Shown piece after piece: positions 48,586 to 51,321 of a DNA stretch of 64,000 nucleotides. Origin of the DNA: Daphnia pulex (lineage: Eukaryota; Arthropoda; Branchiopoda; Diplostraca; Daphniidae); NCBI RefSeq assembly GCF_021134715.1, contig NC_060026.1, positions 11,275,001-11,339,000 on the forward strand. The letters are read 5' to 3'. Each line of letters opens with the position of its first letter. Position 1 is the first letter of the stretch. The position numbers and the translations under genes were made by a program. The notes under the pieces are model-generated. The model was not told where the DNA came from. It did no database searches and saw nothing but the letters and a program-made list of their open reading frames with translations.

Positions 48586-48843
48586 TGAGTAGATGCAGAT
48601 CTAAACGCGAAATCAAAGCCCAGGAACGTCATATTAATATCCGGAGTAATGAATCTGGGATGGCCGTCGGCACCAATTTGGGTAGCTCATATAACGTTTT
48701 TCAAATCTCCGAACTCCCTCCTGTGCGGATGTCTGGCGGTCCAGTGGTCCAAAGTCTCTGATCGGCTAAAATTCGATCTTCTTGGCTATCCAGAATGGCA
48801 AAATAAGTCCTGGCCAGGATGCTGGAGAGTCCTATGCTCAAAC
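48586..48843 (+). pseudogene. Left part of an unknown coding sequence split by the LTR element
   Basis: From ATG 48586 an open frame with protein-like composition (KREIKAQERHINIRSNE) runs to about 48775. After a frame slip it runs up to the LTR border with GESYAQ. Removing one copy of the CAAAC duplication joins this in frame to TVTPAPSTPTHSVDF on the far side of the element. A further piece with SSSRRRLDFSPVV lies near 51500-51580. The host sequence looks like another decayed transposon or retroelement protein; identity unknown. Confidence 0.4.
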
Positions 48844-49462
48844 TGTTGGAGTTTGAACAAAATAGACAGAATCAGTTTTATAGAGGCTTCTGTATTTCTC
48901 TCGAGAACAGGATACGACATTCCATTTTGTATGGAGCTTCTGTGTAAACAGGATAACTTAATGTTTATGTGTGGATTGGAAAAACATGTATGATACGGGA
49001 AACGATAAGGTTCTGCACACATAGATGATTGATAACATAAGAACACAAATGATAAGCTTCATGTGCACTCAACGATAACGTTCTGCACTTCAAGCAATTA
49101 CATCTTCTCACAAGTGACGACATAATTAAACAACATAATGATAAGCTTCTTGTGCACTCAACGATAACGTTCTGCACTTCAAGCAATTACATCTTCTCAC
49201 AAGTACAGAATTTAGAGTTTGATTCACATATATAGTTACCAGATAAACGTGAAGCACAAAAGAACGGAAAAGAGAAACCAGAGCGTGGTCTAGAGAGAAC
49301 CTTTCTCTAGCGTGGTCGGGAAAAGAAGAAAGAGTAGACAGGGAGAGAAAGATACTAAACAGCAACTTGATGTGTAGAAAAGGAGGCCGACTATATGGGA
49401 TGGTCAACCTGCGCCATCTATTAATCGTTCCTCTCACTCTGAAGTAACGTATGATTCCAACA
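48844..49462 (-). repeat. LTR (3' LTR of the gag-only element)
   Basis: 619 bp with TG...CA ends. It holds an internal direct repeat: 49049-49115 and 49138-49204 are almost identical (core AACGATAACGTTCTGCACTT), 89 bp apart. The short open frames in it are duplicated in both LTRs and are not genes. Confidence 0.92.
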
Positions 49463-49537
49463 CTCCCTCTCATACATTAGGAAAAGAGAGAGAGAGAAAA
49501 TGTATGCTCCAACACCCCCTCTCATACATTAGGAGGA
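49463..49537 (-). repeat. Duplicated polypurine tract region
   Basis: CCAACAC-then-CCTCTCATACATTAGGA occurs at 49457-49482 and, with one difference, at 49509-49534, 52 bp apart. The duplicate contains the LTR end plus purine tract, so the element carries two candidate plus-strand priming sites. Confidence 0.8.
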
Positions 49538-49719
49538 TAAAAGAAAATAAATAATGGATGATTGTTCGTGATAATTTGTTGCAGTGGCCCCGCAACATCG
49601 ATCATTCTCCCTCTGAAACAAGATGAAAAAACGGTTTGAGGCAACTAAATCAAAAAAAAGAAAAAAAAGGGCAATCATTGTCGTTCTTTCTGCTTGGATT
49701 CCTGGATAGAAAGAAGATA

Positions 49720-50663
49720 TTATTGGGAAAGTGTTGATGCAGCAAGTCTGTCTGAAAATCGCTTTGCTGCCGCTTCATCTCGAAGTCGCATACGACACAC
49801 TTCTTCTTTGTGATTAGGCTTGTCGCAATATTCGCATTTTGGATATGGATGATGTTTTGATGATTCGCCTTGTTTGACTCCACGACCTCCTCGTCCACGT
49901 GTGGATGGGCGGAATTCCGGGGAAGCTGGAGAACGTTGTGTAGCAAAAAAAGCGGCATCAATCGAGTCTTGCTGCCCTCCGTTGAAGCGTGTTGCCATGG
50001 TCTCTTCTTTCAGTAACCGAGATGTGAGCAAAGCAATTGTCTTCTGGTTAGCTGGTACACTGTCCCAGGCTGTGGTGAAGCTGCGATAACTCGGAGGTAA
50101 AGTACAAATGATTTTCGTCATGATCTGGAGAGGAGTGACAGGTGCACCAACATCGTGAAGTTGAATGGCCATCGTCTCGATTTCAGTTATGTGGGACATA
50201 ATGTCATGATCAGGTTGTAACTGGTACTCGAAAAATCGCTGTTGCAGGATGTGCTGGTTCTCGCCGGCATTTTGGAGATGCTGAGCTGACAGGCGGATCC
50301 ACATTTCGCGTGCGTTAGTGCAGTTTACTAGCGATCGTTGTTGCTGCGTTTCAATTGTTGCAACAAGATAATTTCGGGCCAGAATGTCGCGCCTGATCCA
50401 ATCCTCCATTTGTTGTTCGTTAACAATCTCTCCTTCAGGATTAATGTTCTAACATAATTAGGAGGAAAAAGGAATTAACATCTGCTGGTAATCTTGTGTT
50501 GGATAAAGATAAATACTTCAGCAGGATAGAGTTCATCTCCATTTACAATCCCTACAAGATTGTGTTGTTCAAGCAATAGCCAACATCCGAATTTCCAAAG
50601 TGAGAAATTGTTTCCATTAAATTTGGCTATGTGGCTTACTTCTCTGAAACTGGAATTCGCCAT
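49720..50663 (-). CDS. Copia-type Gag (UBN2-like) with CCHC zinc knuckle and a small intron
   Basis: Exon 1 is 50517-50663 (49 codons from ATG) and exon 2 is 49720-50448 (243 codons with stop). They are joined across a 68-nt intron with GTATTT donor and TTATGTTAG acceptor; the joined product is 291 aa. The N-terminus has the Copia Gag pattern FNGNNFSLWKFGCWLLLEQ. The central region holds LARNYLVATIE, then LSAQHLQ and LQPDHDIMSHITE. A basic Arg/Gly stretch precedes the knuckle CEYCDKPNHKEEVC (CX2CX4HX4C). It would form the particle that packages element RNA. The frame is intact. Without splicing, exon 1 runs into a stop 14 codons further on. Confidence 0.85.
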
Positions 50664-50688
50664 TTTTTGTTCGTCGTAAGGCGTAAGG

Positions 50689-50702
50689 CTGGGCCCATAA
50701 CC
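50689..50702 (-). other. Primer-binding site, initiator tRNA-Met anticodon stem-loop
   Basis: The plus strand reads CTGGGCCCATAACC, the sequence of the anticodon arm of eukaryotic initiator tRNA-Met. The minus-strand RNA is therefore complementary to the tRNA's internal region rather than its 3' end. Copia of Drosophila is known to prime from an internally cleaved initiator tRNA in this way. Confidence 0.85.
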
Positions 50703-51321
50703 TGTTGGAGTTTGAACAAAATAGACAGAATCAGTTTTATAGAGGCTTCTGTATTTCTCTCGAGAACAGGATACGACATTCCATTTTGTATGGAGCTTCT
50801 GTGTAAACAGGATAACTTAATGTTTATGTGTGGATTGGAAAAACATGTATGATACGGGAAACGATAAGGTTCTGCACACATAGATGATTGATAACATAAG
50901 AACACAAATGATAAGCTTCATGTGCACTCAACGATAACGTTCTGCACTTCAAGCAATTACATCTTCTCACAAGTGACGACATAATTAAACAACATAATGA
51001 TAAGCTTCTTGTGCACTCAACGATAACGTTCTGCACTTCAAGCAATTACATCTTCTCACAAGTACAGAATTTAGAGTTTGATTCACATATATAGTTACCA
51101 GATAAACGTGAAGCACAAAAGAACGGAAAAGAGAAACCAGAGCGTGGTCTAGAGAGAACCTTTCTCTAGCGTGGTCGGGAAAAGAAGAAAGAGTAGACAG
51201 GGAGAGAAAGATACTAAACAGCAACTTGATGTGTAGAAAAGGAGGCCGACTATATGGGATGGTCAACCTGCGCCATCTATTAATCGTTCCTCTCACTCTG
51301 AAGTAACGTATGATTCCAACA
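50703..51321 (-). repeat. LTR (5' LTR of the gag-only element)
   Basis: 619 bp, identical by eye to the other LTR, including the internal 67-bp repeat. It should drive minus-strand transcription of gag. Confidence 0.92.

Follow-up and report, generated by a model that had tools for sequence, protein, structure and literature searches.

The window analysed here is a stretch of 64,000 nucleotides from the Daphnia pulex genome, and on its minus strand lies a complete LTR retrotransposon of the Copia type that carries a gag gene and no pol. Its features, in window coordinates and with 5′ and 3′ given in the element's sense, are these:

48839-48843: target site duplication CAAAC, left
48844-51321, minus strand: complete LTR retrotransposon of 2478 bp, Copia type, without pol
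48844-49462, minus strand: 3′ LTR, 619 bp, from the comparison of the LTRs
49463-49473, minus strand: purine tract ATGAGAGGGAG
49463-49719, minus strand: 3′ non-coding stretch, 257 bp, confined to the window family and to relatives with these LTRs
49720-50448, minus strand: gag exon 2, 242 codons and stop, with PF14223 at E 1.1e-25, open in all three intact copies
49795-49836, minus strand: zinc knuckle CX2CX4HX4C, its C, C, H and C columns invariant in an alignment of eight Gags
50449-50516, minus strand: gag intron of 68 nt, GT...AG, phase 0, relatives having GT and AG at this site too
50517-50663, minus strand: gag exon 1, 49 codons, with a homologous exon in relatives
50688-50702, minus strand: primer site GGTTATGGGCCCAGC, complementary to the anticodon-arm side of tRNA-iMet
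50703-51321, minus strand: 5′ LTR, 619 bp, identical to the other LTR and with matches elsewhere in the genome
51322-51326: target site duplication CAAAC, right

The 619-bp LTRs show no differences from one another, have termini of the TG...CA type (TGTTGG...CCAACA), and are abutted directly on their inner sides by the primer site and the purine tract. Each of these marks of a recent integration, the CAAAC duplication included, had been claimed in a preliminary description of the locus made from its letters alone, and each was confirmed, as was the statement that the 1240-bp interior encodes only Gag: the Copia Gag domain is the sole protein domain detected there, with no pol. We searched the genome in 13 contigs totalling 133,188,837 bases (numbered with the prefix C, C10 being the contig of the window element), and the 3′ non-coding stretch gave six matches, all six within LTR-bearing copies. 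The smallest contig matter of note is C13, 15,333 bases long, which encodes mitochondrial proteins of arthropod type, as read over 9,000 of its bases. As in Copia, priming would be by a half-tRNA, here of tRNA-iMet. A genome search for the complement of the primer site gave 140 places, against none for a reversed control pattern; many of these places fall in two arrays, and the stretches sampled there hold tRNA-Met(cat) genes. Within the arrays (C2:8746000-8786000 and C7:4300000-4356600, sampled as L035 and L036) tRNA-Met(cat) genes alternate with mostly tRNA-Gly genes at a spacing of about 415-480 bp, the tRNA that matches the primer site being tRNA-Met(cat). A separate observation concerns positions 49500-49540 of the window: in the element's sense, 52 bp upstream of the genuine tract, an extra purine tract leads into TGTTGGAGCATAC, which nearly repeats the beginning of the 3′ LTR.

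By the type of its Gag the element belongs to the Copia superfamily: PF14223 is found in exon 2, and a profile made from eight Gags, the window Gag among them, matches Copia VLP protein chains in the PDB (E 6.9e-15). The presence of a Gag frame sets it apart from TRIM and LARD elements, which are defined by having no coding capacity. The intact Gag of the preliminary description is indeed present, and open in all three intact copies, but it does not form a single frame, being split into two exons by the 68-nt intron, which lies in phase 0 at the same site as in pol-bearing relatives. Among ten elements compared, GT and AG stand at this common phase-0 site in nine, namely the window element, L012, L019-L023, L028 and a second gag-only family (family 2, described below), the exception being L024, whose splice donor is changed. 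Gag exon 1 was also sought in L025-L027 and not located, and L040 and L041, which have both exons, and L042, which has a broken exon 1, stand outside the ten-element comparison.

The genome search with the LTR, in which 15 of 15 candidates were scored, produced 17 matches, among them three intact gag-only elements and older fragments. Besides the window copy on C10 (duplication CAAAC, no LTR differences), intact copies lie at C12:5872868-5875349 (GATAG, one difference) and C3:5781625-5784109 (TATTT, none). The three have a common layout and different target site duplications, and four pol pieces of the relative L019 found no pol inside any of them. The circumstance that would have told against a gag-only element, pol in every other copy, did not arise. 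We thus reject the reading of the window element as an isolated deletion product or an artefact of assembly, which is the simplest default for any short LTR element and draws some credit from pol loss by deletion being the likely origin; the presence of one copy on each of three contigs, with different duplications, the same structure and no pol, together with a second family of 21 copies, makes it barely credible for this assembly.

Pooled over the three intact copies, the paired LTRs differ at 1 of 1860 sites (upper 95% bound 0.003). At substitution rates assumed to lie between 1e-8 and 2e-9 per site, the values used for dating, this puts the mean age at about 27,000 to 134,000 generations; the element is young, as first described. 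When the LTRs are compared across copies, 39 of the 47 variable columns fall within positions 425-585 (element's sense) and do so in blocks, while the interior holds one difference in the leader and then none up to position 737; these block-wise differences look like the exchange of LTR segments, not simple decay. Full-length Copia relatives with the same LTR, a search for which had been suggested, did not turn up: searches with LTR DNA, interior DNA, the 3′ non-coding stretch and the gag protein (for gag, 150 of 290 candidates scored) found no full-length pol-bearing element of this kind. Among the LTR-bearing fragments L011-L018, pol matches occur in L012 and L017 only, that of L017 being 62 aa long. 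At a further locus, L009, a pol piece with 31-36% identity to L019 lies past the element's 3′ LTR and is taken as a neighbour, outside the element.

The second gag-only family was met as 21 equal-scoring gag matches with short frames (150 of 290 candidates scored). It is a 2161-bp element with 199-bp LTRs, a primer site and a Gag domain as in the window element. Its interior is found in 20 full-length copies at 100% (rounded), in one copy with a 511-bp gap, and at 91% in a sister element, L041; its LTRs match at 100% at all 40 scored places (the best 40 of 51 candidates). The loci examined were L037 (C1), L038 (C8), L039 (C5), L044 (C8) and L045 (C12), and the target site duplications read in five copies are all different (CCTAT, CTGCT, ATATG, GTCAC and CAAAC). 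None of the 21 young copies has pol. The original proposal of a gag-only Copia element in an animal host, supported already by the lack of pol in three of three intact copies, is strengthened by this second family; its further part, an own Gag combined with borrowed enzymes, is something we infer.

In family 2 the gag intron is predicted at positions 456-966, and one copy, L044 (C8:3685583-3687233), is without exactly this segment: the end of exon 1, GAA, is joined to AGACGC of exon 2, and no alternative placement of the junction is possible. This copy has identical LTRs and the duplication GTCAC, both pieces flanking the missing intron match at 100%, and its 1651 bases are one more than the comparison copy minus its intron. 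L044 is a retrocopy of spliced RNA. Because exactly the intron is missing, splicing occurs in family 2; because it was spliced RNA that was reverse transcribed, the packaging of spliced RNA is possible; and because 20 of the 21 copies retain the intron, unspliced RNA is the usual template. The splicing in vivo to which L044 attests is that of the homologous intron in family 2 alone, and the window element's own intron is presumably spliced as well. A gag intron is thereby a natural record of the type of RNA, spliced or unspliced, that was packaged, and through this record the packaging and the helper dependence of defective elements become measurable by counts of insertions.

Two decayed lineages bear on how the gag-only form came about. 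L012 (C8:3568888-3571294) has the leader, intron and gag of the window family (89% over 782 bp), with the gag interrupted by stops and LTR ends that are 93% identical over 154 bp. Between its gag and the shared 3′ stretch lie about 500 bp that include a 99-aa RNase H match (50.5% identity, E 3e-32), and a 38-aa pol-related piece is found on the other strand. Since L012 keeps both gag and an RNase H remnant, the window family or a sister once had a remnant of pol, and internal deletion in steps is the most economical reading of this locus. For family 2 the corresponding relative is L040, similar at 75% over 865 aligned gag positions and with three stops within its RVT_2 match, in which about 3.4 kb separate two points that are neighbours in family 2, one in gag just before the protease and the other in the last part of RNase H; the family-2 interior is the L040 interior minus these 3.4 kb. 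A second pol-bearing relative, L042, is more broken than L040. Family 2 points to a gag-only form created by internal pol deletion, and most likely the form did arise in this way and then multiplied. The simple internal deletion that the preliminary description had set against its own proposal is therefore half right: the window element is not one broken copy, yet L012 and family 2 both point to pol deletion as the origin.

The family-2 deletion was also considered as a splice product of a pol-bearing RNA, a reading on which its junction, too diverged from L040, gives no verdict. The gag-only sister L041 (C3:5698900-5701700), whose LTR pair is without substitutions and has indels only, has a junction unlike that of family 2, containing about 80 bp with matches at 10 further sites, and for both of these reasons its deletion is probably a separate one, though a partial deletion may be shared. 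L041 was also considered as the direct ancestor of family 2, which the difference in junctions disfavours.

Elements that could supply the lost enzymes are present in the same genome. In each of the five pol-bearing relatives L019-L023 the two LTRs are 99.6-100% identical, the 14-nt core GGTTATGGGCCCAG of the primer site is present, and TGTTG is preceded by a similar purine tract. Gag and RVT_2 are read through without a stop in L019-L022, in frames 1371-1404 aa long, and L023 has them in two frames, gag (337 aa) in one and RVT_2 (1103 aa) in the other; RVT_2 (PF07727) is present in gag-bearing frames of the relatives. Genome-wide, of the 100 RVT_2 matches listed (150 of 280 candidates scored), 14 fall in frames that run for at least 1200 aa without a stop. 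In the exon-2 alignment L019, L021, L022 and L023 are 58-62% identical to the window Gag, and the best pol-bearing match to it in the genome search, L019, reaches only 69% (150 of 290 candidates scored). L019-L023, which share the primer-site core with the window element and have a similar purine tract, are candidate helpers.

Judging from these sequence features, we think it likely that the window element is a non-autonomous Copia element that makes its own Gag and takes its enzymes in trans. An internal deletion would have removed pol, after which the gag-only element would have multiplied. Its spliced RNA, with the 68-nt intron out, would give the complete Gag with its zinc knuckle, while the unspliced RNA would be packaged and, with tRNA-iMet as the primer, copied into DNA that would then integrate. 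Having lost the copying enzymes, the element probably borrows them from relatives, so that pol-bearing Copia elements would give protease, integrase and reverse transcriptase in trans. The helper Gag-Pol could co-assemble with the window Gag through its own related Gag.

The same relatedness could work in the opposite direction. In yeast Ty1 a truncated Gag, p22, acts as a dominant brake. By analogy, the gag-only product might act mainly as a dominant brake on autonomous relatives and be tolerated by the host for that reason, and a pol-less Gag with 58-62% exon-2 identity to four relatives could co-assemble with helper Gag. However, the element has multiplied, something that depends on functional helper particles, and there is no sign of a domesticated single-copy gene; we regard an interfering role as highly improbable.

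A more serious question for the likely reading, in which the element uses its own Gag, is whether that Gag matters to its movement at all. The element might be a passive hitchhiker, carried by helper particles by virtue of its LTR, primer site, leader and purine tract, with gag intact through youth alone. In its favour is L046 (C4:8582900-8584700), a relative of family 2 (mostly 82-86%) of 1335 bp with an identical pair of 198-bp LTRs, which retains the LTRs, primer site, leader, exon-1 stretches and intron repeats and is without gag exon 2. L046 moved recently without a Gag of its own, from which it follows that an own Gag is not obligatory in the family-2 lineage. The window family too gives this reading some room, since its three copies differ at seven codons, four synonymously and three in the amino acid (binomial p 0.046 against 0.78). 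However, L046 was found once in the genome search, as against 21 gag-bearing copies, gag is open in all three window-family copies and in all 22 of family 2 plus L041, and between family 2 and L041 there are 11 synonymous and 12 amino-acid changes, a dN/dS of 0.28 (p 0.003). The 21 family-2 copies, being nearly identical, do not count as 21 independent tests, and because the junctions of family 2 and L041 differ, part of the constraint between them may predate the gag-only state and belong to a pol-bearing ancestor. On this evidence we hold the passive reading to be unlikely.

Selection for the intact Gag, as suggested at first, accordingly stands in part. Pairwise dN/dS values within the window family are 0.07, 0.84 and 0.19, so this family is not conclusive by itself. 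Polarising the changes with two relatives over 217 codons, where 39 of 63 changes (16 synonymous, 23 amino-acid) could not be assigned to a branch, placed four synonymous and two amino-acid changes on the window-family branch, the corresponding numbers for the L012 branch being four and 14, a difference without significance (Fisher p 0.13). Overall, selection on Gag is moderately supported, through the comparison of family 2 with L041, and weakly so within the window family alone. The non-repeat part of the family-2 intron differs from that of L041 at 7 of 328 sites, where synonymous sites differ at 11 of 181 (p 0.026) and the 5′ LTR at 21 of 198; the low divergence of the intron hints at signals within it.

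The likely reading, with Gag made from spliced RNA and enzymes taken from relatives, can be carried further. Daphnia Copia elements as a whole might be a split system, with a Gag messenger on one side and an unspliced genome on the other, in which gag-only families add surplus shell to members with a fused Gag-Pol, as their partners. We offer this as a speculation, with the chances rather against it. If it were true, the packaged RNA would never itself be able to make a whole Gag, and gag-only families would be partners more than parasites. A surplus-shell role would account for the occurrence of gag-only forms in at least two families and for their outnumbering of the nearest pol-bearing kin; family 2 has 21 young gag-only copies against two decayed pol-bearing relatives.

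Gag-only LTR elements are known from plants, where TR-GAG elements were reportedly described by Chaparro et al. in 2015. These resemble the window element in having LTRs, a primer site, a purine tract, gag without pol, and several copies; on the same points the window element has an LTR pair with TG...CA ends and a target site duplication, both priming signals, Gag without pol, and three copies. It is unlike them in its animal host and its intron-split gag. Among wheats, RLG_Quinta of einkorn is described as keeping Gag without reverse transcriptase and integrase, as having the primer site and LTR ends in common with its autonomous helper RLG_Cereba, and as a proposed Gag donor (PMC11302176). 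It is likewise a short Gag-keeping element, and it differs, on the same account, in being a centromeric Gypsy element of a plant with an extra domain and a single named partner (PMC11302176), whereas the window element has several possible partners, none of them close. RLG_Sabrina and RLG_WHAM, which occur with RLG_Wilma in wheat, are called semi-autonomous; they too keep Gag and miss reverse transcriptase and integrase, and they differ as Gypsy elements of plants with very high copy number and a retained protease (PMC9744471).

For Daphnia itself, a 2010 survey of D. pulex included an element only if it encoded domains such as gag and pol, and the shortest Copia element in it measured 4064 bp; by reason of that domain criterion and that minimum it could not list elements of 2.1-2.5 kb (PMC2996953). 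Daphnia Copia elements have been named the CoDpu clade (PMC3587641). They share host and superfamily with the window element, and L019-L023 are elements of this sort, with putative membership of CoDpu. Another animal case, HeT-A of Drosophila, relies on another element's reverse transcriptase. The parts listed for it are a 5′ UTR, Gag and a 3′ UTR, so that it too is an animal retroelement with Gag as its coding part (PMC3357415); it differs in being non-LTR and telomeric. Among the literature matches listed, none described an LTR element with gag alone from Daphnia or from any other animal. The window element is an animal counterpart of the plant TR-GAG elements and the wheat Gag donors, its new trait being a spliced gag. 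The D. pulex genome carries at least two gag-only families with fresh copies, one of them with 21, and surveys that require pol overlook such recently moving short elements.

A third short element was seen at L043 (C11:984000-987200). It is about 2.75 kb long with an identical direct terminal repeat of 253 bp (the stretch begins inside the repeat), and in it gag and a protease-side piece are fused to an RNase H-side piece, the integrase core and reverse transcriptase apparently missing. Gag matches like that of L043 lie at C11:6594888, C9:8866272 and C4:715498.
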